From the NCBI RefSeq assembly GCF_900169485.1, contig NZ_LT821227.1, positions 620,001-684,000 of the forward strand: a DNA stretch of 64,000 bases. The letters run 5' to 3'. The notes beneath the pieces were generated by a model, which worked only from the letters and a program-made list of their open reading frames with translations, was not told where the DNA came from and ran no database searches. Source of the DNA: Phoenicibacter congonensis (GTDB lineage Bacteria; Actinomycetota; Coriobacteriia; Coriobacteriales; Eggerthellaceae). Positions 6,258 to 41,174 of the stretch are shown one piece after another (position 1 is the stretch's first letter; every line of letters starts with the position of its first letter). Both the position numbers and the translations under genes were made by a program.

Positions 6258-6288
6258 TCCTCATTTGCATTAGAGCGCTGGTTATGAG

Positions 6289-7140: not shown

Positions 7141-7147
7141 CTTTTTC
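7126..7147 (+). terminator. weak hairpin with T run at the PIG-L gene end
   Basis: CTATTT at 7126-7131 pairs with AAATAG at 7135-7140 over a 3-base loop, followed by CTTTTTC. The stem is AT-rich and overlaps both convergent stop codons, so it may serve as a weak terminator for the plus-strand gene. Confidence 0.35.
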
Positions 7148-9234: not shown

Positions 9235-9330
9235 TAATCTATCCCTTCATCTTCTTTGAGGAGCCGTGCTAAAAACCGTTTGCTTCTAGTCTGGCATCGC
9301 GATAGCTTCATCAAATTTTGGCTTAATAAT

Positions 9331-10089: not shown

Positions 10090-10103
10090 TGTGCGCCCTG
10101 TCT

Positions 10104-12123: not shown

Positions 12124-12140
12124 AAAAATCCTGGGTCGAT

Positions 12141-13178: not shown

Positions 13179-13212
13179 TAATCCTGCCTTTTTTCTCTTT
13201 TATCGACACTAC

Positions 13213-13242
13213 ATTATAAAATAACAGTGTATTCGTTGTAAA
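13213..13242 (-). promoter_or_regulatory. promoter of the minus-strand glycan operon
   Basis: On the minus strand, -35 TTTACA (13237-13242) and -10 TATAAT (13213-13218) are 18 bases apart, with the GT2 ATG at 13178 about 35 bases downstream. It would drive GT2-GT2-permease-ATPase-FkbH. Confidence 0.6.
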
Positions 13243-13314
13243 ACTTATGCGAGCAAGTCGATTAACCCGCAGGTGGTTTTTTTATTGCGTTTTAAATTTA
13301 GAAAAGGAGAATTT

Positions 13315-14412: not shown

Positions 14413-14576
14413 TTTAAATTTCCATGGACGCATGTTGTGTCTTCGTTTTTTGTGCACAACTGCATTTCTTTATTTAAGCTGTTAGTGACTGGTGCGTTTG
14501 GGAATGATGATGTTCATGAAGTTCCTGGGAGAAATTGGCGTTGCTATGCACAAAAAGCTTCGCTGCTTAACTATCG

Positions 14577-14939
14577 ATGGTAGGTTCTAATGAAAAGGTG
14601 CCTTCGAAAGTGAAGGTTTTATCCTATTCAGGCGATGATATGTTCCAAACTGCCTCGATGGAAGCTAAAGATGCATTTCCTGATGGATCAATTTCAGCGA
14701 TTATTGCAGCGTCGTGGCTTTCTCGATCTTGGCAAAACTCCATTCATCCCAATTTGGTAAAAGGAACGGGGCTTGCCGACCTTGGGAAGAGGAAGCAAGA
14801 AGTCACAATCCTGAGAGGTTATTTGCCATCAACTCTTCTTGAAGTATGCTTTATAAATAACAGTTATGAAATGAACCAATATCAAAACAGGAAGGATTTT
14901 ATTGCAAAACAGATTGCTTTTGGTATTGTTTCTCGATAG
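14577..14939 (+). pseudogene. remnant joining a CWB2 fragment to an amidase C-terminus
   Basis: A 120-codon ORF without a signal peptide. Residues 12-46 (SYSGDDMFQTASMEAKDAF..., AIIAAS) match the first CWB2 repeat of the next gene. Residues 50-120 match the end of N-acetylmuramoyl-L-alanine amidase domains (SIHPNLVKGTGLADLGKR, TILRG, STLLEVCFINN). The rest of the CWB2 module and the amidase catalytic half are missing, so this looks like an in-frame internal deletion of a secreted CWB2-amidase gene. Upstream, 14413-14576 has no signal-peptide ORF in frame and nothing else recognisable. A short functional protein is possible but unlikely. Confidence 0.7.
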
Positions 14940-14957
14940 AAAAGGCGGAAAAACTAT

Positions 14958-16889
14958 ATGAAAAAAAGATTTCTCAGCGGTGTTTCTTTAGTTTTGTCAC
15001 TCTCTTTAATTTCTCTCATGCTTCCTTGTGTTTCTTACGCGCAAGATTCAACTGAAGAGAGTTACGTTTCAGGAATAACTGATGCTGAAATTGATGAGGT
15101 GGTTGGGGAACTTGGCATCTCTGATGAAGTCAGTCTAATGAACAACGATGTTGATAAACTGGTGTCATTTTCAGGACAGGATATGTTTGAAACTGCTGCT
15201 TTAGAAGCTGCATATGCCTATCCAGAGGGATCGAGTTCTGCAATCATTGCTGGTTCTGGCGACGCGTGGGTAGACTCACTTGCTGTGTCTAGCTTGGCTT
15301 CAAAAAAAGGTCCAATCTTATTTTCATATAGAGATTCTCTTCCAGATAAAACTCTTTCCGCTTTAAAATCACTTGGCGTCAGCAGCGTAATAGTAGTTGG
15401 CGGATCTGCTGTAATTTCCGATAGTGTTTTAAACACACTAAAAGCAAATGGAATATCTGTTGAGGAAAGGCTCTGGGGTGATGATTGTTATGGAACGCAA
15501 CTTGCGATTTATAACTATGGAGACAGGCACAACATCTGGAGCGGTGACATTGCGTTTGTTGCATCGTCCCTGGGTTTTGGTGACGCTCTTTCTGCTTCCC
15601 CTGTTGCCTATGACCTAAACGCTCCAATTTTCATTGCTAAAGGCGATGGTCTTCTCACAGAAGAGGCTCAAAAAACACTCATAAATGCTGCAAAAGATGG
15701 CAAATACAAAGAGGTTGTTGCTCTTGGTGGAAGTTCGGTTATCTCCGAAAGAACAATGGGTTTTCTAGACGCTGTAGCTGCCCTGTCTGGTGGTGTGGAG
15801 CCTCAGAGGTTATGGGGCCAAGATCAATATAAGACGTCGGTTGCAATCGCCAATTGGGCTGTTTCTGAAAAAGGGTTTTCAAATGTTTCACCTGGATATG
15901 CAACGGGTCGAGCACCATATGATGCTTTAGCAGGTTCTGTAGTCCAAGGAATTAGCAAGTCTCCGCTGCTGTTGGTCGATGACAACTATCGTGATGCCAT
16001 TAGCTACACCACTCAAAATTCAAGTCAGATTGGACAAGTAAAATTCTTCGGCGGCGAAGCAGTTGTTTCAAATAATGTTCGCTCTTCGATTATCTCAGTG
16101 TGTTTTGGAGTGCTAATGCAGGAAAACACTGGTATATCCTTAGATAGAATGGTTGATCTTGAATATGCCTCCATCCAAAATTTTGACAGCTCATGCACAA
16201 GGGACGAGTTGACTAGATATATCGGTGCAGAGTGTAATTTCAGCTCATCAGATTGTTATCAATTTGCAAAACTAAATGACGGCTATTCAGGATCTATGTC
16301 TGCAGTTGATTTGAATAATTTTATTAGCTCCAACAGCAAAGGTGCTAATGGCATTCTTGCAGGTCAAGGGCAAGCTTTTATAGATGCTTCTAAACAATAT
16401 GGTGTCAATGAAGTTTATCTTTTGTGCCATGCTATCCTTGAAACTGGATGGGGGACATCGCAGTTGTCGACAGGTTGGACCTACAACGACGAAATTCCTT
16501 CGGGCCACGCTCCTGTGAATGCCGCGCCTGATGGCAAGACCTATTACAATTTCTTTGGAATTGGAGCAGTTGACAATGATCCTTTGTGGGGAGGAAGAAT
16601 AACGGCTATCAAAAATGGCTGGGACACTCCAGAAAAGGCGATTATTGGTGGTGCAAAATGGATTGCATCTTCAACGAACTATCTCAACAATCAATGGAGT
16701 CAAAACACTCTTTACAAAATGCGTTGGAACTATTTTCAGGCGGCTAAAGATGGGTCAGTGTGGCATCAATATGCAACAGCGAAACACTGGGCAACAGGAA
16801 TTGCGAAAATTATCAATCAGTGCTACTCTAGTGCAGGAATTACTCCAGCAAATTCGGGGCTAATCTTCCTCATTCCTGTTTATAACTAA
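14958..16889 (+). CDS. secreted CWB2-anchored N-acetylglucosaminidase
   Basis: A 643-aa autolysin-type enzyme. Residues 1-29 are a signal peptide (lysine-rich start, long hydrophobic core). Three CWB2 repeats at about 65-385 (LVSFSGQDMFETAALEA, ERLWGDDCYGTQLAIY, QRLWGQDQYKTSVAIA) anchor it to the wall. The C-terminal domain, about 395-640, is a glucosaminidase (GH73/LytD type): HAILETGWGTS with catalytic glutamate E495, then YNFFGIGAVDNDP and GAKWIASSTNYLNNQW. It cleaves peptidoglycan glycan strands after GlcNAc. Here CWB2 is N-terminal, unlike the other five CWB2 proteins in the window. It follows the decayed CWB2-amidase remnant by 18 bases. Confidence 0.92.
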   Translation: MKKRFLSGVSLVLSLSLISLMLPCVSYAQDSTEESYVSGITDAEIDEVVGELGISDEVSLMNNDVDKLVSFSGQDMFETAALEAAYAYPEGSSSAIIAGSGDAWVDSLAVSSLASKKGPILFSYRDSLPDKTLSALKSLGVSSVIVVGGSAVISDSVLNTLKANGISVEERLWGDDCYGTQLAIYNYGDRHNIWSGDIAFVASSLGFGDALSASPVAYDLNAPIFIAKGDGLLTEEAQKTLINAAKDGKYKEVVALGGSSVISERTMGFLDAVAALSGGVEPQRLWGQDQYKTSVAIANWAVSEKGFSNVSPGYATGRAPYDALAGSVVQGISKSPLLLVDDNYRDAISYTTQNSSQIGQVKFFGGEAVVSNNVRSSIISVCFGVLMQENTGISLDRMVDLEYASIQNFDSSCTRDELTRYIGAECNFSSSDCYQFAKLNDGYSGSMSAVDLNNFISSNSKGANGILAGQGQAFIDASKQYGVNEVYLLCHAILETGWGTSQLSTGWTYNDEIPSGHAPVNAAPDGKTYYNFFGIGAVDNDPLWGGRITAIKNGWDTPEKAIIGGAKWIASSTNYLNNQWSQNTLYKMRWNYFQAAKDGSVWHQYATAKHWATGIAKIINQCYSSAGITPANSGLIFLIPVYN

Positions 16890-16903
16890 AGAAAAGAGAC
16901 TTC

Positions 16904-18061: not shown

Positions 18062-18070
18062 GTTGAACGT

Positions 18071-20503: not shown

Positions 20504-20520
20504 AATTTCTCCTTTAATTC

Positions 20521-21624
20521 TTAAGAAAGGTTCTCCAGGAATTTGACTATTCTTTTTGAAGCGTTCCCATCGCCATATGGGTTAATCGCCTTGCTCATTT
20601 GTGAATATTTTTCTTCACATGTGAGCAAATCAGTGACAATTTTTACAATGCTCGCTTTATCAACGCCGGCAACCACAGCTGTGCCTGCCATCACGGCTTC
20701 TGGTCTTTCTGTTTCAGTTCTCAAGACCACAACAGGTTTGCCGAGATGTGGGGCTTCTTCTTGAAGGCCACCAGAATCGGTCATGACTAACTTGCATTTG
20801 TTCATTGCGTTGTGCAAATCCTCTACGTCCACAGGGTCCGTGAGTGTTACATGTTTGTTTTGTCCCAACACATCGAACACGGTTTCCCGAACAGCAGGGT
20901 TTAGATGCACTGGATAAATCACACGAAGGTCGTCAAAATTTTTTGTTAATTCGTTTACAGCTTCGCAAATGTTTTTTAGAGGCTCTCCGAGGTTTTCACG
21001 TCTGTGCGCAGTTAGCACTATGGTTGGTTTTGAGAAGTCGTGTTTTTGCAAATCCTCATTTTTAAATTTATATGCATCTTTTGTAGTGTATTGGAACGCG
21101 TCGATTACGGTGTTCCCTGTGACCACAACACCCTGTTCAATTCCTTCTTTCTCGAGCGCAAGCTTGTTGTTTTCTGTTGGGGCGAAATGATATGTTGCGA
21201 TAGCCGAAATGATTTTTCTGTTCATTTCTTCGGGAAAAGGTGAATAGATGTTTCCTGTGCGCAAGCCTGCTTCAACATGTCCAACTGTTATTTTTTCGTA
21301 AAAAGAGGCAAGCGCAGCCGCCATGCTGGTGGTTGTGTCGCCGTGCACCAAAACAATGTCAGGTTTAGATTTCTCAAGGATGGGCTTCATAGAATTCAGC
21401 ACATCTGTCGTGATTGAAGTGATTGTCTGACGGGGTTTCATTATTTCAAGATCAAAGTCGGGCTTGATGTTGAAAATGTCTAGCACCTGGTCAAGCATGG
21501 TTCTGTGCTGGCCAGTGACGCAAACTTGACCATCGAGTTTGTTTGATTTATTGATCTCGAGGACCAGCGGGCACATCTTAATGGCTTCTGGTCTTGTCCC
21601 AAACACAGTGAGTACTCTAAGCAA
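20521..21624 (-). CDS. wecB: UDP-N-acetylglucosamine 2-epimerase (non-hydrolysing)
   Basis: Interconverts UDP-GlcNAc and UDP-ManNAc; the WecB/MnaA family supplies ManNAc for wall teichoic acid and other glycans. The 367-aa product has the N-terminal TVFGTRPEAIK, GHVEAGLRTG, the TAHRRENLG motif, and the substrate-binding DSGGLQEEAPHLGKP and RTETERPEA segments. It starts with TTG at 21624, with GGAA five bases upstream. It diverges from the subtilase gene and is the first gene of a two-gene minus operon with the GT fusion. The epimerase implies ManNAc, or a derivative, in the local glycan. Confidence 0.95.
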   Translation of the reverse strand: MLRVLTVFGTRPEAIKMCPLVLEINKSNKLDGQVCVTGQHRTMLDQVLDIFNIKPDFDLEIMKPRQTITSITTDVLNSMKPILEKSKPDIVLVHGDTTTSMAAALASFYEKITVGHVEAGLRTGNIYSPFPEEMNRKIISAIATYHFAPTENNKLALEKEGIEQGVVVTGNTVIDAFQYTTKDAYKFKNEDLQKHDFSKPTIVLTAHRRENLGEPLKNICEAVNELTKNFDDLRVIYPVHLNPAVRETVFDVLGQNKHVTLTDPVDVEDLHNAMNKCKLVMTDSGGLQEEAPHLGKPVVVLRTETERPEAVMAGTAVVAGVDKASIVKIVTDLLTCEEKYSQMSKAINPYGDGNASKRIVKFLENLS

Positions 21625-21728
21625 CTTATTCCAATCTATCTATATTTTTCTACTGTCTAATTCTATTTTATTGACCAGTGTAAAAATTGTTTTTCCGAAA
21701 AGATTGACTTTCCTTGTATTATCGATTT

Positions 21729-24700
21729 ATGAAAAAAATGGGCAAAAAAACGCTGAGTGTTGCTTTTTCGCTTTTTATGGCAACAGTTTTGTGCGCGTCG
21801 CAAATTCTTGTATTCAACACCCTGGCATATGCCGACGACCTTGATAAGCAGGCTGTATTGCAGGAAATAGGCACGTCGGGCTATTCGGAAGATGCGGTAG
21901 TTGTTAAGTTTAAGGACAGTGTTGAGAGTCCATCGTCGCAGTCTGTAATTGATGGCTCAAATGCTGTTAAAGACACAGAAGAGGCAGCACCAAAAAAAAT
22001 AGCAGACAACACAGCTGTTGTTGAGCTTCAAGATGGCGCTTCAGTTGTTGAGGCAATTGTCGATTTAAAAGAAGATCCAAGAGTTGAATATGTGGAGCCC
22101 GACTATACCATCGAGTTGGCAGATGAGACAACGCTTGCAAATGACGTGAACCGTCTCGGCGGGCAAACATATTCGGACGCCGATTCTTCGATTGCTGGCA
22201 ATTCGCTTTCTGATTCTGCGTCTGTTGCTTCTAAAGTTGAAGTCAACGACCCAAACGTTGGGCAACAATGGTACATTTCCGATGAGAACTCTAAGGTTAA
22301 AGATGCCTGGGATGTCGCTAAATGCAATAATCAGGTGACTGTTGCAATTGTTGACACAGGTGTCGATGCTGACAATCCTGAGCTAGTAAACAACATCGTA
22401 GGTGGCAGGTCTTTTGCTACCGACGATGCGAGTGATTGGAATGATACGCACGGACATGGGACAGCAGTAGCTGGTGTTATTTCGGCACAAACTAACAATG
22501 CACTTGACATTTCTGGTGCGAGCTACAACGCTAACCTTTTGATTTGCAGGGCTTTTACTGGGAAAACTGCACCTTCTAGCGACATTGCAGCGGGGATAAG
22601 ATGGATTATTGGCGTTGCAGACCAATACAACGTAAAAGTTATCAACATGAGTTTTGGCATTTCAAAATCTCAACCAAAAGCAATAGAAGAAGCAATCAAC
22701 GATGCAGAGTCAGCTGGCATTCTTTGTGTTTGTGCAAGCGGCAATGAAAGCAACATAACTGATCTTGCAAGCGTCGATTTCCCTGCTAATTTAGACAACA
22801 CAGTTGGAGTTGGGGCAATCACATCCAGGCACACAAGAAGCTATTTTTCAAACGTTGGGGAGTCTCTTGATGTTGTGGCACCAGGCTCAAACATTCGAAC
22901 ACTAAGCATTAATTCAGGAGAAGAAGTCTATGAAGATGGAACTTCCTTTTCCACTCCGTTTGTCTCAGCTGCCGCCGCTTTGTGCTATTCGACTAACCAT
23001 CATGCGAAGCCATCTGTAATAAAGGGCTGTTTAACATCTACTGCAATTGATTTGGGCACAAGCGGGAAAGATGATTATTACGGCTATGGTCAAGTGGATG
23101 TTTATAGTGCGGTTATATCTGCCAAGTCTACTAAGGCTAACAACTACAAGATTTTTAATCCAAAAGATGATTCAAAGATTGATCAGTTTAAATCTAGAGT
23201 TTTTAATGGCTTGTTGAACAAAAATTCTTCTGTCGATGTGTCTGACATTGGAATTAATGTCTCAGACATAACTTTTCAAAACACTTCAGGTCAAGTGCTC
23301 ACGGGGGCTACTGCTTTAACTGAAATAATTCGCAGTCACCCTCTCTTTTCAACTCTTTGTGTGGGCTGGAATTCGCTCAGCTTGGTGACTGACGGCGACA
23401 TTGTTTCGTCTGTTTCTGTAGATAGCTATATGACCACATGGAAAGACGATTTGATCAGTGCTTTTGTTGACAAGTATGAGTCATTTCTGGAAAACGCTCC
23501 ATTGAATGGAAGCGATGTTAAGAAGGCCGCATTTGTTCACGATTGGATTTGTGGCAACACAACCTATTCTTTACAAACTATAAATTTGCCAGAATTTGCA
23601 ATAGGTTGCATTGCTAACGGCAAGGCGCTTTGCGCAGGCTATTCCTATGCCTATCAGTTCCTTTGTGAACAAATTGGGATTGACTGCAATTATGTTGCGG
23701 GAACAACGAATGCTGGATCTCACGCATGGAATAAAGTAAAAATAGATGGACAGTGGTTCTTGGTTGACTCAACCTGGGATGGTTCATTCACTTCTGCATC
23801 AAATCCAAATAACTTTGGGCATGCCTATTTTTTGCTAAATGACGAGGAGTTTAAAGAGGCAGGAGATGGTTCACATGCAAACGATTGTGATGTCACTGGG
23901 AATGAACCTATTAACAATGATTGGTATTTTGCTAATAAATATTGGCAGGATGTGAGAGGTCCTCTGAGTGTTGAACAACTCAACCAAGATCCAAAACTCA
24001 CAAAGAAAGATGATTCCAATCCTGGGGGAAATCCATCTTCATCATCTCTCATCCGAATTTTCGGGCAAGATTGCTATGGAACTAATGCCGCCACCATTTC
24101 AAATGACATTAAAGAAAACGGATTGCCAAATGGAGTGATTGTTTGCGGAACGAGTCACTACCTTGATTCTCTCAGTGCAGCTGCACTTTCAGGTTTGCTT
24201 GATTATCCAATTCTGCTTGTCAATGGCACCGATGATTCTATGAATGAAACTTCTCTGGGAGCTCTTCAAGAACTCACTAACTCTTCAACAAACTCGCTTG
24301 AAATAATCGTTTTAGGTGGAAAGTTTGCAATATCTGAGGGCATCGAGAATGAACTTTCTTCATATGACAGCGATGGAGTTTGTAAGCGCATCTATGGTGA
24401 TGACGGTTATGCGACTAACCGCGCTGTCTATGACTTTGGCACCACACGTGGATCTTGGGACGCTAACGAAGTTCTTGTAGCTTCAGGCGCTGGTTATCAT
24501 GACGCGCTCGGTGCAGGCAGCTATGCAATGTCAAAACGAGCATTCATTTTGCTTGTTAACCCAAATGGCGACAATGCGCCAATGATTGACAAGGCCAAAG
24601 GTCATGGTCAGGCAACAATTTTGGGTGGCCTTGCCGCTGTTCCTTTCCAGGTCAAATCTGATTTAGAGGACGCTGGAGTGACAACTATTCGTCTCGCTGG

Positions 24701-24998
24701 CGAAGATGCATATCAAACAAACACTACATTTGTGAAGTATGCAGTTGCTCAAGGAATGTCTCTTGATGGAGCAGGCTTCTCATCTGGTCTTGGTTATTAT
24801 GATGCTTTGGGTTCTTCTCACATTCTTGGTAAATCCAACAGTGTCATGTTCCTTGTGTCACTTGATTATTCTTTGAATCAACCAGTTTATGACATGCTAA
24901 AAGAATCTGGGGTTTCTTTCACTAGCGGTCGTGTCTTTGGTGGCGAAGTTGTTGTTTCAAGCACCACAAAAGAGGCATTTGAAAACTGCATTAATTAG
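21729..24998 (+). CDS. secreted subtilase with transglutaminase-like domain and CWB2 anchor
   Basis: A 1089-aa surface protein from ATG 21729 (an in-frame TTG at 21714 is an alternative; neither has a clear ribosome-binding site). In order: signal peptide to the ALAYA-like cleavage region near 34; I9-type propeptide (VVVKFKDSVES... VEYVEPDYTIE); S8 subtilase with Asp in AIVDTGVD (about 209), His in THGHGT (about 241) and Ser in GTSFSTP (about 406); transglutaminase-like fold with Cys in KALCAGYSY (about 635), His in GSHAW (about 665) and Asp in VDSTWD (about 680); three CWB2 repeats from about 780 to the end. All catalytic residues of both enzymes are present. The CWB2 end is about 95% identical at DNA level to that of the next gene. 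Confidence 0.92.
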   Translation: MKKMGKKTLSVAFSLFMATVLCASQILVFNTLAYADDLDKQAVLQEIGTSGYSEDAVVVKFKDSVESPSSQSVIDGSNAVKDTEEAAPKKIADNTAVVELQDGASVVEAIVDLKEDPRVEYVEPDYTIELADETTLANDVNRLGGQTYSDADSSIAGNSLSDSASVASKVEVNDPNVGQQWYISDENSKVKDAWDVAKCNNQVTVAIVDTGVDADNPELVNNIVGGRSFATDDASDWNDTHGHGTAVAGVISAQTNNALDISGASYNANLLICRAFTGKTAPSSDIAAGIRWIIGVADQYNVKVINMSFGISKSQPKAIEEAINDAESAGILCVCASGNESNITDLASVDFPANLDNTVGVGAITSRHTRSYFSNVGESLDVVAPGSNIRTLSINSGEEVYEDGTSFSTPFVSAAAALCYSTNHHAKPSVIKGCLTSTAIDLGTSGKDDYYGYGQVDVYSAVISAKSTKANNYKIFNPKDDSKIDQFKSRVFNGLLNKNSSVDVSDIGINVSDITFQNTSGQVLTGATALTEIIRSHPLFSTLCVGWNSLSLVTDGDIVSSVSVDSYMTTWKDDLISAFVDKYESFLENAPLNGSDVKKAAFVHDWICGNTTYSLQTINLPEFAIGCIANGKALCAGYSYAYQFLCEQIGIDCNYVAGTTNAGSHAWNKVKIDGQWFLVDSTWDGSFTSASNPNNFGHAYFLLNDEEFKEAGDGSHANDCDVTGNEPINNDWYFANKYWQDVRGPLSVEQLNQDPKLTKKDDSNPGGNPSSSSLIRIFGQDCYGTNAATISNDIKENGLPNGVIVCGTSHYLDSLSAAALSGLLDYPILLVNGTDDSMNETSLGALQELTNSSTNSLEIIVLGGKFAISEGIENELSSYDSDGVCKRIYGDDGYATNRAVYDFGTTRGSWDANEVLVASGAGYHDALGAGSYAMSKRAFILLVNPNGDNAPMIDKAKGHGQATILGGLAAVPFQVKSDLEDAGVTTIRLAGEDAYQTNTTFVKYAVAQGMSLDGAGFSSGLGYYDALGSSHILGKSNSVMFLVSLDYSLNQPVYDMLKESGVSFTSGRVFGGEVVVSSTTKEAFENCIN
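24387..24943 (+). repeat. near-identical CWB2 segment, copy 1
   Basis: These 557 bases align without gaps to 30256-30812. By eye the identity is roughly 95%, with long exact blocks, far above the similarity of the rest of either gene to the other. It encodes CWB2 repeats 2 and 3. Confidence 0.85.
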
Positions 24999-25120: not shown

Positions 25121-25419
25121 AGCGTCCGTGTGATAACATGTTTTTGGGCAAGAGATTCCATTATCTCTGCTGTTTCTGTGCATAAAGTTCTGCTGCCTCT
25201 GCATCGATTTCTTCTAGTAGGTGGAGAGTGAAGAATTTTGATACCCAGCAATCGCTAGGTTACATTTCCCAGTGTTTTCTTGTTTGTTTTTATTGATGGG
25301 TGTTAAGCACAAAAATCGAAAACAATTCAATTCTTATGCGGGATTTAGAGGTTTTTATTGTTCCACCTTTTAATTGTTTTGTTTTCAAAACGGTAAGTAT
25401 TTTTTTGAAGGAGGTGTTT

Positions 25420-28400
25420 ATGAAAAAAACCGAATTATCAGATTCGACATTAGGGAAGGGAGGTGTTTTGGTGTCTAAGAAAAACACTATTCAAGGTTCG
25501 CTTTTGAGAGTTGTTCTTGCATTTGCGCTTGTTTTAGGCTTAATGCCTTCGTTGGCTACAACTAAAGCTTTTGCTGATGAATCAGCAAATCTCTCTGGAT
25601 ATCCCCAAGCTCCAGACATGACGGTGACATTCGATAGTGATGGGGGAACACCTGCTTCCTCAAATTCAGTTATCAAATTTGATGGAAGTGGCTACTACGT
25701 TTCTGCTCCTAGCCCAGCTCCTTCGAAAGCTGGCTTTAAGCTCACCGGTTGGACTATCCAATCTCCTGACAATGAAGAAACCTTTGAATCTAACTTTAGT
25801 GATGAAGACTTCTTTGGTTTTGACACTAATGGTGACAGCTCTGTTGTTCTAAAGGCACAATGGACCGAAGATGCGTCTAACCCAGGCACCACTGTTCCAG
25901 CGGAAAATGTTGTTGCAAAGATTGGTGATGTTCAATACTCATCTCTTTCAGAGGCTTTTTCTTCTGCCAAAACTGGTGAAATCATTACCATGACAGCTGA
26001 TGTTGACGATGTCTATGGCATATTCGTAAAAGATAAAGCTGTGACTCTCGACATGGCTGGTCACAAAATCACTTCTGACAATCTTGATGCTGACGGTCAG
26101 CAAATCTACGTGAGGAAATCTGACGATAAGAGCAAGACATGGCCAGCTGTTTTCAATGTAGAAAACGAAGGTTCGTCACTCACTATTACTGGGAATGGCA
26201 CTATTGCTGGCCCAGAAGGTGAGCAGGCTAAAGCCCTCGATTCAACTTGCATAATTACTGTCGATTCGGGATCTAGCTTCACAATGACCGATGGCGCTAT
26301 CACATGTGGTGGCATTGGGTCAGATGGCATGTATGGTGTTTATGCTCTTGGCGGTGGATCTATCACTTTAGGCGAAGAGGCGGGCAATGGGCCTTCCATT
26401 ACCTCTCATTTCGCTGCGGTTGGAGAGAACAACACAACAAGCCCAGCTAATGTCACAATTTATGGTGGCAATTACAAGTCAATGGCTACACCAGGAGATA
26501 GTGACTGGTGGTATTACTTCTGCACTCCTGTTTATGCTGCTGCTTCTGGCAACATCAACATTTCAGGCGGCACTTTTGAAGGCACATATGGACTTGTTTC
26601 TCGTTACGCCAATGTCGATCAAAATCTGCGCATTTCAGGCGGCACTTTTAATGGTGCCAAACAAGCTATTTTAAAGGAAGATAAACAAGGCACAGAAGGT
26701 GCAACTGGCACTCGTTCAATTGCAGTGGCGGGCGGTTCTTTCTCAACAGCTGTTCCAGCTGACATGTGTGCAGAAGGCTTTGAACCAAAAGAGAATGGCG
26801 ATGGCACATTTGGTGTCCAAAATGAGAAGACCGACCCTGTTTCTGGTCCTTACGACCTAAAAGCCCTTGTCGTTGATTCTGAAGGCAATCCTGTTAGCGG
26901 AATGAACTTTAATCTCTACAAGACAGGTTCATCTGCAGGTGCTACTGAGCCAGGTTCACCAGTTTTTGGTTCGAGCTTAAAAACCTACACCACTGATGCA
27001 GATGGTGTTCTTTCTGTCAACGCACAAGAATCGTTTGACAAGTTACAGTATTTTGTCTCTAATGCTAAGTATGCGGCTATTAAGTCGGCAGACAAAAACA
27101 ATGTGGTTAGCAGCATTGACATTTCAAACGCAATCGGGCAAAAGCACACTCAAACAGGCGATGGTCTTTTGTATCTTGGTTATAAAGAGAAATTAACTAC
27201 CCCAAGAACCGACTTCTTCTATAGATTTGCATTTGATGATTTCCAATATGTGAACCTTGATTCTAATGGCAACAATAACAATGCTGCACCTGAGCAAATT
27301 GATGCAACAGTAAAAATTGTTGTTGAAAAGAGAACAGGCGTTTATAAAGACGATCTTCAAACCGCAATATCAAAAGCTTCTGCTCTAGAAGAAACCGATT
27401 ATTTCTCAGGGTGGGACGCTCTTAAGACTTCTCTAGATGCGGCTAAAAGTGTGGATGCTGACTCATCAGCCACACAAGATGCAGTCGATGAGGCTACGGA
27501 GAATCTCAATGCAGCTGTTGAAGGTCTTGTTCAATATCCTGGCTCTACAGACTCAAAAATTCAAATTCTCGTGCTTGGTGAAGATGGAACACCATACAAC
27601 GGAGATATCAAGTTTGTAGCCTATGGACTTGGCGATGATGGGAATGTAACTGAAACTGTGGTTGCAGACGACATTATGGCTTCAGGCGGAATTCTTTCTT
27701 TAGAGCTCACAACTGTAAATCAAAAAAATGTTGTTGTTAAGGTAAAACCTGGACAATCTTTGACCTCAGACGATGAATTCAAAATCAAAGTCTCACCATC
27801 TTTAAATCAATGGGTGCCAGGCTACTTTATTAGCGTTAACGGCACAGATCTGCCTTATGATGGGTCTCAGGTGCGTGGTCTAAAGTGCCAGTTAAAAGCA
27901 GACCAATCTTGGAATGCTAACGATTTTACCTATGATGGAGCTACTGTTACAGGCCTCAGCGACTCTGGTAAAGCTAAGATGGCTACCGATCCTAATGTTG
28001 TTGTGCCATCAACTTCTCCTGACGGAACAGCAATTACTGCAATTGGAAAAGGCGCTGCAAACACTGGCATTTTCAGTGTTGGGTCAGGAACGTCTCAGGT
28101 TAATCCTTCTAATGTGACACTTCCTGAAGGAATCACATCAATTGGCGATTTTGCTTTTACGAATTATGCAGGTGTAGCGATTTCTTTCCCTTCAACTCTC
28201 AAGAGCATTGGAGTTAATTCATTTGCATCTTCAAAGTTAGAGTCACTAGATCTTCCTGACAGTGTTACAACGTTGGGAAATGCTGCTTTCAGAGCCTCGA
28301 AGAATCTCACTACTCTCAAAATCGGCAAAGGCATCACTGAGCTCCCACAGGCGTCTTTTTCAATGACGGGCATTACAAATCTCTCTATTCCAGAGAACGT

Positions 28401-30867
28401 CAAAACAATCGGAAGAATGGCGTTTGATGGTACCCCTGTTAGCTCTTTGACCTTTGAGGGGAAAGCAACAGTTGAGACTATTGGTGATACCGCTTTCGGA
28501 AACAACAGTTTAAAAGAGCTAGAAATACCAGCTTCAGTCAAGACGATTGAGAGATATGCTTTCAGAATTAAACAAGGCGCAACTCTTGAAAAACTCACCC
28601 TTCATGAGGGACTGGAGTCTATTGGTAAACAGGCATTCAAAGGCACCTTGCTAACTGAGCTTAACCTTCCAAGCACTGTAACAACTCTTGATAAGAGCGC
28701 ATTTGAAGCTAATAAAGCTTCTGATGGCAAAGTGGTTTTGTGGGTGACTAACGATGCTCAACTTGAGGACCATGGTGCATTTATTGCAAACAGCGATTTC
28801 CACAAGACGCAAAAGGTTTCAAGCGAAGTTACTGTTACATTCAATGCCAACGGTGGAAAGTTTGGCGATAACGATTCACAAGAAGTGAAAGTCGAAAAAG
28901 GTCAAGTTGTAGTTGCACCGTCAACTAATCCAACATGGGATAAACATGATTTCATCCGCTGGACTACTGATCCTGAGGGCCAAAATAGATATGACTTCTC
29001 AACATCAGTAACTGGTGACATTACCCTTTATGCCTCATGGTATGAGTGGGAGCAATTCACGGTCAAATTTGACCTAAATGGTCATGGTGGACCTCAACCA
29101 GAAGATCAAATTGTCTACATTGAGGATCAAGAGCATGCATATGCCACCAAGCCAGCAGACCCTTCGGCAGAAGGTTATTATTTCTGCTGCTGGAATGAAA
29201 AGGACCCTGTTTATGGGACGCTCCATAAATGGGATTTCGACGACCATGATTTCTATCATGTAGATGATTCGGCTGATCCTGACACGGGAACGCTAACACT
29301 TTACGCTCGCTGGATTCCTGTAAAGTATTCTATTTCCTACAAAAACGTTGACGGTGCTGTTAATCCAAACACCACTTCTCAATACACAATAGAGTCTGAA
29401 GACATCGCCTTGCAGCCAGCAAGCAAAGAGGGATATTCTTTTGTGGGCTGGTTTGACAAAGATGGCAGCGAGTCTGGCGACTGGGGCAATCCTGTAGAAA
29501 AGATTTCAAAGGGGAGCACAGGTAACGTAGAGCTCTATGCTCGCTGGATTAAAGAACTAAACGTAAAGTTTAGTGTAACCGGAATTGATGCTGACGGAAA
29601 AGCACAATCATGGGTTGACGAGTCTGACTTTAAAGTAGCTGAAGGTGACTTGGCCTCTCATTTAACTGAACAGGCATTGTCTGCTAAAGGAGTTAGCTTT
29701 GATGCAACTAAGACCTCCGATAACTGGTGGCTTAACAGCATCACGTCTCCTTTTGACAGCTCCATGAAACTTGGCACTCAAAAAATTGGCAAGGATTGGG
29801 CATACTGGTCACTTCTCGTTAATGGTGAATATTCTGATAAAGGCGCTGGGCAACTTGAACTCAAAGAAGGCGATGTGATTTCTTGGGTATATGAGATGCC
29901 AGCTGCTCCTGAGAAGGTTTACAGAATGGCAGGCGATGACTGCTATGGCACAAACCTTGAAACCATTAAACAAGATGTTGCAGAAAATGGCACACCAAAT
30001 GGTGTTATTGTTTGCGGAACAGGACATTATCTTGATTCGCTTAGTGCAGCAGCACTTTCAGGCCTTCTGAACTATCCAATTTTGCTTGTAAACGGTTCTG
30101 ACGATTCAATCAACAGCAATTCACTTGAAGCTTTGTCTCAACTTTCAAATAATGGAGCAAACAAGCTTGACGTCATTGTTCTGGGTGGAAAATTCGCAGT
30201 ATCTGACGCAATTGAAAGCCAGCTTAATGGCTATGATGTTGACGGAAAATGCGAACGCATCTATGGTGATGACGGTTATGCGACTAACCGCGCTGTCTAT
30301 GACTTTGGCACCACACGTGGATCTTGGGACGCTAACGAAGTTCTTGTAGCTTCAGCCGCTGGTTATCATGACGCGCTCGGTGCAGGCAGCTATGCGATGT
30401 CAAAACGTGCATTCATTTTGCTTGTGAACCCAAATGGCGACAATGCGCCAATGATTGACAAGGCCAAAGGGCATGGTCAGGCAACAATTTTGGGTGGCCT
30501 TGCCGCTGTTCCATTCCAGGTGCAGTCTGAATTGGAGGATGCTGGTGTGGCAACAACTCGTCTCGCAGGCGAAGATGCATACCAAACAAACACTACATTT
30601 GTGAAGTATGCGGTTGCTCAAGGAATGTCTCTTGATGGAGCAGGCTTCTCTTCTGGTCTTGGTTATTATGACGCACTGGGTTCTTCTCACATTTTGGGCA
30701 AATCCAACAGTGTTATGTTCCTTGTGTCTCTTGATGATTCATTGAATCAACCAGTTTATGACATGCTGAAAGAATCTGGGGTTTCTTTCACTAGCGGTCG
30801 TGTCTTTGGTGGAAGTGCTGTAATCTCCGATGAAGTTAAACAAGCATTCGAAGAAAGCATCAAATAA
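25420..30867 (+). CDS. giant modular surface protein: InlB-like, SpaA/FIVAR-like, BspA LRR, DUF4430, CWB2
   Basis: A 1815-aa secreted protein. The ATG at 25420 follows GAAGGAGGTG; a second in-frame start, GTG 25471, has its own GGGAGGTG and sits closer to the signal peptide (cleavage near KAFA). Order: InlB-type B repeat (67-147); glycine-rich beta-helix-like region (165-467); SpaA-like segment (476-627); FIVAR-like helical segment (640-703); a DFTY...GLSDSG cap at 833 and BspA-type LRRs to about 1127 (LPEGITSIGDFAF, IPENVKTIGRMAF); three further B repeats (1139-1375, ...LYARW); DUF4430 (1380-1494); three CWB2 repeats (1502-1815). Probably an adhesin non-covalently held to the wall polymer. 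No LPxTG is present. A hairpin terminator follows the stop. Confidence 0.9.
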   Translation: MKKTELSDSTLGKGGVLVSKKNTIQGSLLRVVLAFALVLGLMPSLATTKAFADESANLSGYPQAPDMTVTFDSDGGTPASSNSVIKFDGSGYYVSAPSPAPSKAGFKLTGWTIQSPDNEETFESNFSDEDFFGFDTNGDSSVVLKAQWTEDASNPGTTVPAENVVAKIGDVQYSSLSEAFSSAKTGEIITMTADVDDVYGIFVKDKAVTLDMAGHKITSDNLDADGQQIYVRKSDDKSKTWPAVFNVENEGSSLTITGNGTIAGPEGEQAKALDSTCIITVDSGSSFTMTDGAITCGGIGSDGMYGVYALGGGSITLGEEAGNGPSITSHFAAVGENNTTSPANVTIYGGNYKSMATPGDSDWWYYFCTPVYAAASGNINISGGTFEGTYGLVSRYANVDQNLRISGGTFNGAKQAILKEDKQGTEGATGTRSIAVAGGSFSTAVPADMCAEGFEPKENGDGTFGVQNEKTDPVSGPYDLKALVVDSEGNPVSGMNFNLYKTGSSAGATEPGSPVFGSSLKTYTTDADGVLSVNAQESFDKLQYFVSNAKYAAIKSADKNNVVSSIDISNAIGQKHTQTGDGLLYLGYKEKLTTPRTDFFYRFAFDDFQYVNLDSNGNNNNAAPEQIDATVKIVVEKRTGVYKDDLQTAISKASALEETDYFSGWDALKTSLDAAKSVDADSSATQDAVDEATENLNAAVEGLVQYPGSTDSKIQILVLGEDGTPYNGDIKFVAYGLGDDGNVTETVVADDIMASGGILSLELTTVNQKNVVVKVKPGQSLTSDDEFKIKVSPSLNQWVPGYFISVNGTDLPYDGSQVRGLKCQLKADQSWNANDFTYDGATVTGLSDSGKAKMATDPNVVVPSTSPDGTAITAIGKGAANTGIFSVGSGTSQVNPSNVTLPEGITSIGDFAFTNYAGVAISFPSTLKSIGVNSFASSKLESLDLPDSVTTLGNAAFRASKNLTTLKIGKGITELPQASFSMTGITNLSIPENVKTIGRMAFDGTPVSSLTFEGKATVETIGDTAFGNNSLKELEIPASVKTIERYAFRIKQGATLEKLTLHEGLESIGKQAFKGTLLTELNLPSTVTTLDKSAFEANKASDGKVVLWVTNDAQLEDHGAFIANSDFHKTQKVSSEVTVTFNANGGKFGDNDSQEVKVEKGQVVVAPSTNPTWDKHDFIRWTTDPEGQNRYDFSTSVTGDITLYASWYEWEQFTVKFDLNGHGGPQPEDQIVYIEDQEHAYATKPADPSAEGYYFCCWNEKDPVYGTLHKWDFDDHDFYHVDDSADPDTGTLTLYARWIPVKYSISYKNVDGAVNPNTTSQYTIESEDIALQPASKEGYSFVGWFDKDGSESGDWGNPVEKISKGSTGNVELYARWIKELNVKFSVTGIDADGKAQSWVDESDFKVAEGDLASHLTEQALSAKGVSFDATKTSDNWWLNSITSPFDSSMKLGTQKIGKDWAYWSLLVNGEYSDKGAGQLELKEGDVISWVYEMPAAPEKVYRMAGDDCYGTNLETIKQDVAENGTPNGVIVCGTGHYLDSLSAAALSGLLNYPILLVNGSDDSINSNSLEALSQLSNNGANKLDVIVLGGKFAVSDAIESQLNGYDVDGKCERIYGDDGYATNRAVYDFGTTRGSWDANEVLVASAAGYHDALGAGSYAMSKRAFILLVNPNGDNAPMIDKAKGHGQATILGGLAAVPFQVQSELEDAGVATTRLAGEDAYQTNTTFVKYAVAQGMSLDGAGFSSGLGYYDALGSSHILGKSNSVMFLVSLDDSLNQPVYDMLKESGVSFTSGRVFGGSAVISDEVKQAFEESIK
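30256..30812 (+). repeat. near-identical CWB2 segment, copy 2
   Basis: The partner of 24387-24943, in the same orientation 5.9 kb away, with no gaps and mostly third-position differences. It suggests recent gene conversion or duplication between neighbouring CWB2 genes. Confidence 0.85.
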
Positions 30868-30916: not shown

Positions 30917-33900
30917 ATGGCGGATCTAAAAAAATCCATTTGCTTGAGGCCTCCTCTCATTTTGTTTTGTTGTTTGTTGTTCCTTCTGGCTTTTCCTGTT
31001 TGTGCTTTTGCACAAGATGGTGCTGTGAGCGCCGATGATGCAGATGTACTCAATGACGGTTTCTCACTTTCGTGGGTCGAAAGTGACGGGGAGCACGTCA
31101 AGGAAAAAGATTTGTTTGAAAACGAACGCTTTAATTATGTGATGCCCGTCAAAGATGTAGATGGAAACGCAGTAGACGGAGTCAAATTCCAAATTTGGAA
31201 CGCCACAACGCAAACAAATGAGACGGAGGTCATTTCAGCTGATGGAAAGATTAACCTGTCACTATTAAAAAATCACAACTACATTTTTTTCCCAATGGAT
31301 AAAGCATGGCAGGGTAAAACCTATGTCTGGGTTAAAGATGGAAAACTTGTGAGCACTAAAACTCTAACAAAAGAATCTTTGAGTTCTCCAACAGTTTGGA
31401 GTTATCCAGAGGTTACCCAAGTAACATTGAGCAAACGCTCACAAGCACTAGACAACGAAAACGATGCGAGGCGACACACTTTTTCTTGGTATTTAAAAAG
31501 GGATGGCAATGATATCGCTTTGTTTAACCCAAAAGTGGAGTTCGTCAGCACTCTTGAGACTGTGGAAGGAAGGGTTGTAACCTATTCAAGCGGAAGCACC
31601 ACAATTTATGCTTCTTTGCTTGAAGATGTTGACTACATGGTAATCTACAAGAGCCCTTCTGGCGTAACTTTAGGTGTAGAGCCTTTTCCTGTTGTCTATA
31701 AAGACAAAAGCGAATATCCAGAACAATTTAGTGAATATTGGCCTGTTGCTTCGACATATGACCACAGATGTTGTCAACAAGTTCTTTACTTTAATGTAAT
31801 TCCTTTGTCTGAACTAGGAAGCACTTGCGATAGCATTTCTACAGATGATGGAAACACAACTGTCGAGGGAATGGACTTTACCGATGAGCAATCGGGAAGA
31901 AGGCCATCTCTTCACACTTTGGATGTTACTTCGCAATATAAAAATCTAAATGGGTTTGTTGACTATGGGGTTTATTCGATTAAAGCTGAGAATACTGCGC
32001 GAAGCGAAGCTTTTAAAGTCGCGGGACTCGATTTTAAAATCACCCAAAAACTACCAAGCGGAAAAACTGTTAAAGCAGTTTATGAAATGAATGATGATGG
32101 ATCGCTTTTAAAATTAAATTCATTTACTCAAAATGGAGATGCGGTCAAGTTCACAACGAGCACTCTTTCTGCTAAACCAGTTGTTTTTGAATACACCTCT
32201 GATGCGCCAGCTAAAAGCAAGATTTTGAATTTGAAGGTTGTGGATGAAGACGGCAACGCTGTGCGTGGTGTTGGAGTTGAGCTCACTGCACAAGGCGAGT
32301 TACAAAAGCCAGTCATTTCTCTTCCAACGACCGATGCCTATGGCGAGACAGCGCGCGAGTGTGACGACACAGAAATTGTGGACGTTGCCTATCAAATTTC
32401 AATTAAGAACAATGCACGAGAGTTAGTTTCTGAAACTACGGTTCAGTTTGCACGCAACGACACTAGTGGCGTTTATGTAGACAAAATCAATGGGCAAGAT
32501 TATTCTGGTGAAGCAACTGTTGTTGTTAAAAATGTTGTTAATCGTTCAATTCTGAAATTGAAAGTTACCGATGGTGCAGGCAACCCAGTTGAAGGCGTGT
32601 CGTTAAAGCTAGTTCCTGACGCAGACAATGTTCAACACAACAAAGATTCGATTATTCTCACAACAAGAACCGACAAAAATGGAGTTTTGAGCAAGGACAT
32701 TTCTGAGCTCATCAATGGATCAGGAGAGACAGAATATTGGACTATCTCAACAACTGACAGCAGCCTTGGAGAACCAGAGAGCAGCGCAAAGCTAAAAGCT
32801 GATTCAGTAATTTCAATTGGCATGGGTGAAGATGGAGATAATCCTGGTGTGCTTGAATATGACATCGTTGCAGCTCACGATGGTATCCCATACTCTTCGA
32901 AGGAATATGCAGGTCTTGTTGATTTGCGTGTCGTCAAAACTTCACTTGTGCAAATACAAAACTATCAGGATCACGCCCAAAGACTTGATAGGCCATTTTT
33001 AATTGTTGAGAATGGCTCTAAGATTGAGGCTCCTGAGCTGGTGACTGATGGAACGCCAATTGCTGGTTGGTATACTGACCCCAATTTCACAAATAAATGG
33101 AATTTTGATAACGATGTCGTGAGCGAAAACATGTCATTGTATCCAAAGTGGAAAACAAGTCTTGGTCTTAGAGTGACGCGTCTTGCTGGCGATGACTGCT
33201 ATGGGACAAATTTTGACACGTTGTGTCAGGATGTTGACAATAATGGAAGACCAAATGGAGTAATTGTTTGTGGAACAAGCCACTATCTTGACTCATTGAG
33301 TGCCGCGGCACTTTCTGGACTTCTTGATTATCCCGTTTTGCTTGTCAATGGTTCAGACTCAGTTTTGAATGAAACTTCGTTATCGGCAATCAAAATGCTC
33401 ACTAATGATGGCGCAAATAAAATTGAGTTAATTGTTCTTGGTGGCAAGTTTGCCATTTCTGAAGAGATGGAATCTCAGTTGAGCGCTTTTGACAGCGACG
33501 GAAGTTGTGAGAGAATTTTCGGCGATGATGGGTATTCAACCAATCGTGCTGTCTATGACTTTGGATTGACCCGTGGTTCTTGGAACTCAGATGAAGTTTT
33601 GATCGCATCTGGTGCGGGTTATCATGATGCTTTGGGGGCTGGCGGCTATGCAGCAGCCAAGAATACTTTCATTTTTCTTGCAAACCCACACAGTGACAAC
33701 TCTTCAATGATTGCGAAGGCTAAAAATCACTCTAGAGCCACAATCCTTGGTGGTGTTTTTGCGGTTTCTAACGAAACTCAAGCCGGACTAGAATCGGCTG
33801 GTCTAACAACAGCCAGGCTTGCAGGGGATGATGCCTACAAAACAAATGTTGAGTTTGTTAAATATGCTTTGGCAAATGGAATGAGCCTCAACGCTGCTGG

Positions 33901-34111
33901 TTTCTCCTCTGGTCTTGGCTATTACGATGCTCTTGGCTCTTCTCACATCCTTGGAAAGTCTAGGAGTGTGATTTTTTTGATTTCTCTAGACAGTTCGCTA
34001 AATCGTCCTGCAATAGACATGCTTTACAACAGCACTGAGGAATTGACTGATGGAACTGTTTTTGGTGGTGAAGCAGTAATCACACAAGACTTTGTAAACA
34101 GCATTCTGTAG
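30917..34111 (+). CDS. CWB2 surface protein with Ig-like and InlB-like modules
   Basis: A 1064-aa secreted protein; the ATG follows AAAGGAGG. The signal peptide ends near CAFA (about 32). Residues about 72-428 form a module shared with the 1590-aa protein (ATTQTNETEV, a DARRHTF motif, YDHRCCQQVLYFNVI, SGKTVKAVYEM). Two transthyretin/SpaA-like Ig segments follow (LNLKVVDEDGNAVRGVGVEL; LKLKVTDGAGNPVEGVSLKL), then an InlB-like repeat (AGWYTDPNFTNKWNF, about 702-745). Three CWB2 repeats run from 753 to the end (TRLAGDDCYGTNF, ERIFGDDGYSTNRAV, ARLAGDDAYKTNVEF). No enzymatic domain is recognisable. Likely an extracellular stalk or adhesin. Confidence 0.88.
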   Translation: MADLKKSICLRPPLILFCCLLFLLAFPVCAFAQDGAVSADDADVLNDGFSLSWVESDGEHVKEKDLFENERFNYVMPVKDVDGNAVDGVKFQIWNATTQTNETEVISADGKINLSLLKNHNYIFFPMDKAWQGKTYVWVKDGKLVSTKTLTKESLSSPTVWSYPEVTQVTLSKRSQALDNENDARRHTFSWYLKRDGNDIALFNPKVEFVSTLETVEGRVVTYSSGSTTIYASLLEDVDYMVIYKSPSGVTLGVEPFPVVYKDKSEYPEQFSEYWPVASTYDHRCCQQVLYFNVIPLSELGSTCDSISTDDGNTTVEGMDFTDEQSGRRPSLHTLDVTSQYKNLNGFVDYGVYSIKAENTARSEAFKVAGLDFKITQKLPSGKTVKAVYEMNDDGSLLKLNSFTQNGDAVKFTTSTLSAKPVVFEYTSDAPAKSKILNLKVVDEDGNAVRGVGVELTAQGELQKPVISLPTTDAYGETARECDDTEIVDVAYQISIKNNARELVSETTVQFARNDTSGVYVDKINGQDYSGEATVVVKNVVNRSILKLKVTDGAGNPVEGVSLKLVPDADNVQHNKDSIILTTRTDKNGVLSKDISELINGSGETEYWTISTTDSSLGEPESSAKLKADSVISIGMGEDGDNPGVLEYDIVAAHDGIPYSSKEYAGLVDLRVVKTSLVQIQNYQDHAQRLDRPFLIVENGSKIEAPELVTDGTPIAGWYTDPNFTNKWNFDNDVVSENMSLYPKWKTSLGLRVTRLAGDDCYGTNFDTLCQDVDNNGRPNGVIVCGTSHYLDSLSAAALSGLLDYPVLLVNGSDSVLNETSLSAIKMLTNDGANKIELIVLGGKFAISEEMESQLSAFDSDGSCERIFGDDGYSTNRAVYDFGLTRGSWNSDEVLIASGAGYHDALGAGGYAAAKNTFIFLANPHSDNSSMIAKAKNHSRATILGGVFAVSNETQAGLESAGLTTARLAGDDAYKTNVEFVKYALANGMSLNAAGFSSGLGYYDALGSSHILGKSRSVIFLISLDSSLNRPAIDMLYNSTEELTDGTVFGGEAVITQDFVNSIL

Positions 34112-34358: not shown

Positions 34359-37300
34359 ATGCTAAAAAAATTTACATCGAGTCTTTTAGCATTATGTTTG
34401 GCTTTGATGGCTCTGCCGGCCAATCTAGCTTTTGCTGAGGACTCAACTAGTCAGGTGTTGACAACACCTCTTGAGTTTAAAGCTCAGGTTGTTGACACAT
34501 CTGGCACCCCAGTTGTTGGTGCGAAATTTGCAGCATATAAAACTGGTAGCGCGCAAGGTGCTGTTTCTCCTGGCGCATCAACAAGCGGTTCTAAGGTGGA
34601 AGAATATGTGACTGACAGTGATGGAGTTCTGACTGTTGAATCAAAGTCACTTGGAGATCTTGTTTACACCTATTACTTCGATTCATTGTCTTCAAGGTAT
34701 GTTGCACTCAAGTCATCTGATGCAAACAACCAAATTCAATCGATTGAAATGAAAAATGAACTTAAGCAAGCAACTGGCACAGGCGATGTTCCTCTTTATT
34801 TAGGATTGCGTGAAAAAGCGACATCTCCTGTTCTTCGTTATTTTAACGATGTTGCTATTGACACTGAGAACTTTGTTACTCTCGATTCAACACCAACAGC
34901 AACAACAAGCACTCCAACTTCTATTGAAACAGAGGTCAAAATTGTTATGGCTCCAAGAACAGGGGTTTATAAAGACGCCCTGAAAGAGCTCATTGATTCT
35001 GCTTCAACACTGAATTCATCTGACTACTGCTATGGATTTGATGATATGTCAGCCGTTCTTTCTGTTGCAAAAGGCGTTTATGACAATGGCGCCGCAACCC
35101 AACAAGACGTAAATAAAGCAAGCGCTGATCTTCAATCGGCAATTGATGCCATGATTAAATATCCTCCAACCACTGAAGATGAATTCCAAGCTATCGTTCT
35201 TGGGCCAGATGGAAAAACTTTTTCAGATGAAGTTAAGTTTGCAGCATATGAATTGAATTCGGACGGCTCGACTAGTGAAAATGTGCTCGCAGATGACATC
35301 ACTCCAACGAACGGCATTATTCGTTTAACGGCTGCTGATCTTTCCAACAAAAGTGCTGTTGTTAAATTAAAGGAAAATGAAAATTACGAGACTGAAGACA
35401 CCATCAAACTCGATGTTGCAGTTGAATATGGTGCAGGATATTTCGAGAAAGTAAACGGAGAAGCTATTGGTTATGGCAACACCGTTTATAAATATGCCTT
35501 CAAGCTTGCAAGCAAAGAAGTTAAGGTTGATGTTCCAGTTTCTGGACCGCTCACACTAAATGCAAAAGTTGTTGATGAAAATGGCAAGCCAGTGTCCAAC
35601 ATGAGATTTGGACTTTATAAATCTGGTTCCGCCAAGGGCGCAAAACAACCAGGTGCTAATGCATATGGCGCTGCTCTTAAGGACTACTACACTGACAAAG
35701 AAGGTGTTCTCAAAATTAGTGCTGCTGAGGCGGCAGAACTCACTGATTATTGGTATACAACCAAGTTGTATTCACTCATTAAAGCCAAAGATGCAAATTA
35801 CAATGTAAAAAACATTAGCATTTCGAATGAACAGCGTCAGTTTTCAAGAGACGGGAATTTACCTCTCTATCTTGGACAAGACGAGAAAATGACGACTCCG
35901 CGTTTGAAGTACTTTAACGATTTTGCTTTTACTGACATTGAATTTGTAAACCTTGATGCGAACAGCACAAAGCCATCTGAGGCGCCAATTCCGTTCGACA
36001 CGGAAGTAAAAATTGTTGTAGAAACCAGAACTGGTGTTTACAAGGACTCCCTAAGTGAGCTTGTCAACAGCGTTTCATCCTACAAAGCCTCTGATTATGC
36101 TCAAGGATTTGAGAGTTTTAGCTCTAATCTAGCTACGGCAAAAGATGTGGTTGCAAACAACGAAGCTACTCAAGACGCGGTTGACAAGGCAGAGTCTGAT
36201 TTGCAAGCTGCTATTTCAGGTTTAATAAAATATCCTCCAACAGATTGCAATTCATTTAACGCGTGTGTTATTGATGAGAGTGGAAAATATTTCTCTGGTT
36301 CACAGACTTTTGTTGCCTATGAGCTCGACGACAATGATCAGCCAACCGATACAATCGCTGCCGACAACATTTCAGTTAGCAATGGAATTTTGAGCGCCAC
36401 TCCACAATCCTTAAACTATAAAAATGTTCTTTTAAAACTGAAGGATAACAACAAATACACGACTTCTGATGAGTTCAAAATTAAAGTTCAACCTCGTCAG
36501 AGTTCTTTCTTTGATGATTCTTGCATCCTGAGCGTTAATGGGAAAGATGTTTCCGCTTACGGCACCACTTTAAAAGAATTCTCCGTGAAACTTTCATTAA
36601 AGCCTGGCTGGGAAGACCACGCTGGTGGTGTTCCAAAAGGACAGACAGTGAAAGTTGCAGACATTCCAGTTGAATATACCGATGGTGAGGTGGTTGAAGA
36701 CGGCTTTACTATCGACTTCAACATCCCAAATTCGATAACTTCAAAGCTAGAACACAAGGTTTTTGAGGTTAAAGACGGAAAAATTGCTGGATTTGAAACC
36801 GTTTCTGGTTATGAGACTCAAGCCACAATTCTCTACACTAACCAAAAGTATGGAGCCTTTGCTGTTGTTGGTAATGAGGGGACGCTTTCGATGTTTGGCC
36901 GTTATGAAGGCAAACTTCCTCTTTTGTGGAGCGCAGAAGATGGTGCTGATGGAGAAGAACAAACACTCGAGAAGATTCTGATTAAAAAGGCACCAACACG
37001 CGACGAGAGCACTAACGCAAACAGTGGAAAATCTCAAGGAGAGGGTGTTGACAATCGCTACGACGATGGCGAGCGTCCAGATGCATTCGACACGACCTAC
37101 AACACACTCGATGTTGTTTTACAAACTCTTCCTATTAGAGACGAAGACGGAAGTGGCGTGAGCAAATCTCTCAAATTTAATTTCTTCGATGCGACAACAC
37201 AGGAGTTTGAACAGGTAGTTGAGTCTCTGCCAGGACTCCTTCCTCAAGTAACCCTCAAAAAGGATCATCACTACATCGTTTATTTGCAAGATGATGAATA

Positions 37301-40959: not shown

Positions 40960-41174
40960 AATTCTCCTTAAGAAAATGATTATATAGTGGTGTTATTGGG
41001 AAGCAGAACCATGCTCTGTGCAGGCAGACACGGTGATGTGTTATGATATTTCGACTACAGTGGACCACTGCAACCGTCTGTATATCTTACTGCATAATCA
41101 CAAAAGTGCTTCATTTTTTCTGCCTGATTCATAGTTTTTCTACAATTTGGTGCATTCGTTCATTAAGGAGAAGT

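Follow-up and report, generated by a model that had tools for sequence, protein, structure and literature searches.

A subtilisin domain, a transglutaminase-like domain and a CWB2 anchor on one predicted surface protein of Phoenicibacter congonensis

Domain structure and genomic setting

The DNA analysed here (the window) is a stretch of 64,000 nucleotides from Phoenicibacter congonensis. On its forward strand, the S8-TG-CWB2 gene (21714..24998) is a single reading frame, without interruption, of 1,094 residues when read from the TTG codon at 21714, from which all residues of the protein are numbered; the likely start is the ATG codon at 21729, which is residue 6. The N-terminus (21729..21833) is signal-peptide-like, as judged by eye from its basic residues, its hydrophobic core and the AYA motif before DD, and the protein is apparently secreted. 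The domains that follow are, in this order, a fervidolysin-like N-terminal propeptide (residues 48-130, 21855..22103; PF22148, Fervidolysin_NPro, 31.1 bits against a cut-off of 21), an S8 subtilase domain (residues 206-459, 22329..23090; PF00082, Peptidase_S8, E 9.6e-51, 173.2 bits against the Pfam cut-off of 21.8), a transglutaminase-like (TG) core (residues 600-685, 23511..23768; PF01841, Transglut_core, 42.6 bits against a cut-off of 23) and a CWB2 anchor of three repeats (residues 777-1094, 24042..24995; PF04122, CW_binding_2, E 5.2e-32, three stretches), and each of these families scores above its curated Pfam cut-off. Between the S8 domain and the TG core lies a pre-TG segment (residues 476-575, 23139..23438), where the similarity to some S8-free TG proteins already starts, these matches beginning at residue 486-490 of the protein, or at position 12-21 of the TG query.

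The catalytic triad and the oxyanion asparagine of the S8 domain are complete (D214, H248, N344 and S411, with codons at 22353, 22455, 22743 and 22944), and when this domain is compared with the PDB, it matches subtilisins with a best E-value of 8.8e-35. The Cys-His-Asp set of the TG domain is also complete (C640, H670 and D685, with codons at 23631, 23721 and 23766). A preliminary description of this DNA had reported both sets, followed by CWB2, which is confirmed here. Its proposal of a wall-bound factor with two enzymes stands for the two residue sets and the anchor, which are supported by the sequence; the cross-linking that was part of the same proposal does not stand in this way, because the fold concerned also includes proteases. 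Some other assignments are rejected. The type VII secretion mycosin model (TIGR03921) scores 164.3 against a cut-off of 278.75, the MAG6410 family lipoprotein model (NF045980) scores 81.1 against 450, with its best stretch covering only residues 601-716, and the protein is not Cwp84 itself, as it has an S8 domain instead of a C1A papain domain, for which there is no Pfam match at E 0.001.

The divergent neighbour on the reverse strand is wecB (20521..21624; TIGR00236, 496.8 bits against 210.15), coding for a UDP-GlcNAc 2-epimerase. It belongs to an upstream region (7126-21624) that also has glycosyltransferases, a UDP-galactopyranose mutase (GLF), an ABC transporter whose membrane part is of the ABC-2 type and a CWB2-glucosaminidase (14958..16889, forward strand, profile match). 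Downstream, also on the forward strand, Pfam matches identify four CWB2 proteins, with BspA-type LRR and Flg_new repeats (25300..30867), with Flg_new above the cut-off (30917..34111), with FIVAR (34359..39131) and with LRR_5 (41043..45746). The second of these has in addition a borderline match to the Ig-like Big_1 family (36.9 bits against 34.9, no single stretch passing). The five large neighbours mentioned in the preliminary description are actually these four large proteins and the smaller CWB2-glucosaminidase upstream. From its gene content, the upstream region appears to be a wall-polysaccharide-type locus next to a CWB2 cluster, similar to the PSII/slpA arrangement of Clostridioides difficile, where the PSII locus is described as lying next to CWB2 genes, PSII as being bound by CWB2 and SlpA as being cleaved by the CWB2 protease Cwp84 (PMC5842191, PMC8056022).

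Several smaller features are also observed. A 120-residue reading frame at 14577-14939 matches only the end of Amidase_3 (profile positions 101-172 of 174) and is possibly a truncated amidase. A VTT-domain protein (39177-40307) lies amid the CWB2 genes, and a single reading frame at 46192-49158 combines an acyltransferase domain with DUF6020. Outside the window, two short frames (G000:C1:470549-471083) resemble the remnant of a broken CWB2 domain. The CWB2 anchors are mosaic when the region of about 24380-24860 is compared with the matching part of 29917-30861 in the next gene: the nucleotide identity is 97% over about 80 codons, 89-92% over the next 80 and 53-74% over the first 120 codons, suggesting a recent gene conversion between the anchors.

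Fold of the transglutaminase-like domain

The AF2 model of the TG core has a mean pLDDT of 67.1; within positions 11-120, eight of the eleven ten-residue blocks have values of 84-93 and the others of 61, 71 and 75, and the rest of the model is below 50. In this model the catalytic cysteine opens a helix, the histidine is on the second next strand and the aspartate comes right after the third. A first model, calculated for the whole TG module, has a mean pLDDT of 48.7 and its fold search gave the same top three structures; the shorter model is relied on here.

When the model of the TG core is compared with known structures, the best match is 9crn (TglA of Streptococcus pyogenes; Z 12.2, rmsd 4.4, 149 aligned), followed by 4xz7 (a TGase, Z 10.2, termed streptococcal in PMC10318531) and 3isr (a putative cysteine protease, Z 9.3). 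LapG matches with Z 9.0-9.1 at 7% identity and 3kd4, deposited as a putative protease, with Z 7.8. The animal transglutaminases have Z of about 7-8, and values below 8 may reflect merely a common arrangement. Foldseek gives the same top three as the Z ranking, the best (9crn) having E 3.1e-7, and TgpA has E 4.2e-3. This is also in agreement with the PDB sequence search, in which the TG query finds 9crn (E 6.4e-8) and then 3isr (E 0.037); two antibody chains behind 3isr in this sequence list are regarded as chance matches. As modelled, the TG core has the papain/TG fold.

The TG-like fold is shared with TglA (9crn), the streptococcal TGase (4xz7) and TgpA (6g49). TgpA carries a PF01841 domain and is described as having transglutaminase activity in vitro (PMC3507681); unlike the predicted wall-anchored protein, TgpA is an inner-membrane protein. 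LapG has this fold with the C-H-D residues, as the TG domain has here, and is described as a protease that frees a large surface adhesin (PMC4359373); unlike the protein studied here, it is periplasmic and under LapD control, according to the same source. A streptococcal relative is named a putative transglutaminase/protease in a review (PMC13361665), and among the literature matches listed no paper on the reaction of TglA was found. Given this fold, cross-linking, deamidation and proteolysis are therefore all admissible, and cross-linking is an option, not a finding, because the nearest solved structures bear both TGase and protease names.

Occurrence of the domain combination

The source genome is one contig of 1.45 Mb and 99.7% complete, and the S8-TG-CWB2 gene is its sole match to PF00082 and also its sole match to PF01841. 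The other genome of the genus that was examined, a draft of 84% completeness and 5% contamination, codes for a protein with the identical domain architecture and 52% identity across residues 6-763. Since this congener shares the architecture, the fusion is not due to chance. The identity between the two fused proteins is highest in the TG domain (62.4%), followed by the CWB2 anchor (58.4%), the S8 domain (51.6%), the pre-TG segment (51.0%) and the propeptide (45.8%). The fused gene of the congener also adjoins a divergent gene whose translation, judged by eye, resembles that of wecB, and the congener has a second TG-like gene (L090), with a zinc ribbon. Among the fetched domains, with the gene of the window counted in, the S8 residues D/H/N/S are intact in all 35, and the TG residues are conserved in 100 (Cys), 101 (His) and 80 (Asp) of 102, the remaining 22 domains having E (9), S (6), Q (5) or G (2) in the Asp column. 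Across 32 aligned TG modules, including that of the window, C, H and D are invariant.

Relatives were searched for in 138 genomes of the family, in 137 when the Pfam TG model was used, and also in 395 genomes of the order and 396 of the phylum, and 118 regions were hand-picked for fetching among the matches listed, mainly those with frames longer than about 750 aa. The fusions were counted in 251 sources (250 loci and the window), which are a similarity-chosen sample and no census. Here, 195 distinct reading frames have S8 or TG, of which 101 have TG alone, 79 S8 alone, 7 TG with CWB2, 6 S8 with CWB2 and 2 all three; some of these frames leave contig ends and might conceal a partner domain, and CWB2 is the only anchor scored. 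S8 and TG are thus on one chain in 2 of the 195 sampled frames, and both are of this genus, being the gene of the window and that of the congener. A widespread architecture, named in the preliminary description as what would speak against its proposal, is hence not what is seen in this sample of the order; Bacillota chromosomes were left out of the searches for fusions, so that an S8-TG fusion may exist elsewhere.

At E 1e-6 the TG module has matches in 12 of the 396 genomes of the phylum sample, every one of which belongs to the same order, and an S8 partner of the 765-aa, 817-aa and 934-aa (stop-containing) frames was looked for only in the loci returned. A scan of genome contigs returned three loci, S8 relatives only, one of them from Denitrobacterium. 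A match to the TG module was seen in 7 of 72,556 plasmid records and one to the S8-TG region in 89 of 50,697 phage records, with no match spanning more than 80% of the query in either set; the best 15 of the 89 phage matches concern the S8 part only. Searches of viral contigs with the TG module alone and with one alignment profile (A3) found no relative, and the S8 search found L180, which went only into alignments left out of the fold modelling. Profile searches returned IMG/VR contigs (L176-L179 and L210) having transglutaminase-like genes in which all of Cys, His and Asp are intact; L209 is a further profile-search match on the viral contig of L176. The TG-like genes of L176-L179 adjoin other long reading frames, which by eye look like phage structural genes.

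The relatives with S8 and CWB2 (L030, L031, L032, L038, L040 and L193), all of the same family, have S8 followed by CWB2, as here, without TG, and a Pfam scan of two of them (L030 and L038) shows a fervidolysin-like propeptide, as it does here. Conversely, seven proteins from the order (L096, L104, L105, L134, L143, L155 and L191) have TG followed by CWB2, as here, without S8; in L104 an Ig-like domain lies between TG and CWB2, and L096 has the same domain below the cut-off. At L191, from another genus of the family, two such genes are successive (2910-7697 and 7865-11104). Two TG-like domains per protein are seen in L098, L142, L157, L058 and L059, the first one of L142 having A and S in the Cys and His columns.

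In locus L089, from another genus, one gene for S8 and one for TG are adjacent on the same strand with their frames overlapping by 14 bases, and each bears choline-binding repeats, so that the pair looks like a two-gene counterpart of the S8-TG idea with another anchor. It is the only such pair among all counted loci, many of which have short flanks. Since only this one of the 16 S8 loci fetched with wider flanks outside the genus has a TG neighbour, the adjacency supports a functional link only weakly.

In the literature search, no description of an architecture of subtilase, transglutaminase and CWB2 (cell wall binding) was found. The parts are familiar and the combination is new, all three being on one chain only in this genus among the relatives examined.

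Possible functions at the cell surface

It is possible, with a probability that we estimate at about 0.42, that the S8-TG-CWB2 protein resembles Cwp84 in its role, as a CWB2-anchored enzyme that processes proteins of the surface or of the extracellular space. The secreted protein would be held on the wall by CWB2, and its subtilisin would mature by removal of the N-terminal propeptide. The chain would dock on a wall polysaccharide, presumably the product of the adjacent glycosyltransferase/WecB/ABC-exporter locus. The mature subtilisin would cut neighbouring surface proteins or extracellular ones. The TG-like cysteine domain would work on the same local protein pool, where a thiol hydrolase activity, of a peptidase or of a deamidase, is more likely than cross-linking. 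The protein would fill the role that Cwp84 has for the C. difficile S-layer. By analogy, the four CWB2 neighbours are possible substrates, considering their gene position and the precedent of Cwp84 and SlpA (PMC5842191).

This reading is supported by the domain order, the intact residues, the conservation in the congener, the single copies and the setting with CWB2 genes and polysaccharide genes. Also in its favour, further CWB2 genes occur in the fetched flank of S8+CWB2 genes at three of six places (L188, L189 and L190). Counted against it are the partial confidence of the AF2 model, the draft state of the congener genome together with its second TG-like gene, and the other three of these places (L186, L187 and L193), where no further CWB2 gene was found in the flank. 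For the chemistry of the TG domain, the structural comparison offers hydrolysis as an option, as 3isr and 3kd4 are deposited as putative proteases and LapG has Z 9.0-9.1. Against the hydrolase reading, a transferase role is possible because the two structures ranked highest go by the names TglA (9crn) and TGase (4xz7), and because TgpA is in the Foldseek list.

As in the Cwp84/Cwp13 system of C. difficile, there would be a CWB2-anchored protease amid CWB2 genes beside a wall-polymer locus (PMC5842191). The domains differ: in Cwp84 a C1A papain protease is combined with a lectin-like domain, and in the protein described here an S8 subtilisin with a TG-like domain. Secreted TG-like domains on a surface-targeting module are also described for Ruminococcus flavefaciens, with a dockerin in place of CWB2, and S8 is not mentioned in the available portion of that report (PMC2930009).

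The protein could instead be a nutritional surface protease that breaks down protein from the host or from its diet, with the CWB2 neighbours not being substrates. Its subtilisin-type domain is near secreted subtilisins, and there is a single copy of each enzyme family in a genome of 1.45 Mb, a count that covers the S8 and TG families only; we consider this reading doubtful, as the place beside a polysaccharide locus and within a CWB2 cluster suggests a role at the wall. In the cut-and-crosslink scheme, the subtilisin would trim surface proteins, which the TG domain would then link through glutamyl-lysine bonds, making the CWB2 coat stronger. The complete C-H-D set, the closeness of the fold to 9crn and 4xz7, and the animal transglutaminases further down the ranking agree with this, as do the in vitro activity of TgpA, of the same Pfam family (PMC3507681), and putative S-layer transglutaminases in S. 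pyogenes, which a review raises as a possibility (PMC13361665). Such cross-linking nevertheless seems unlikely, with putative cysteine proteases among the nearest solved structures and LapG being a protease of the same fold (PMC4359373).

The location of S8 and TG on one chain could also mean that the subtilisin mainly processes its own chain, switching on or releasing the TG domain, and the TGase zymogen of Streptomyces, which is activated by a secreted protease (PMC9047793), is counted in favour of this. We regard such self-activation as very unlikely: the pre-TG segment is not specific to the fusion, because S8-free TG proteins have counterparts of it, and the Streptomyces enzyme is no close parallel because its active site is altered (CDH; PMC10318531). 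A bolder version, in which one wall protein both matures and covalently welds the CWB2-anchored coat, its subtilisin cutting or activating and its TG-like domain joining surface proteins, is quite improbable; if such single-chain welding were true, the adjacent gene pair of L089, with its choline-binding repeats, would be a parallel solution in another genus.

If both active sites act on the same surface proteins, as the processing-enzyme reading would have it, this protein would be, to our knowledge, the first in which a CWB2 anchor carries a subtilisin together with a transglutaminase-like enzyme. The gene offers a single-gene test of the maturation of a CWB2 coat outside C. difficile, and a route to the function of the secreted transglutaminase-like domains of bacteria.
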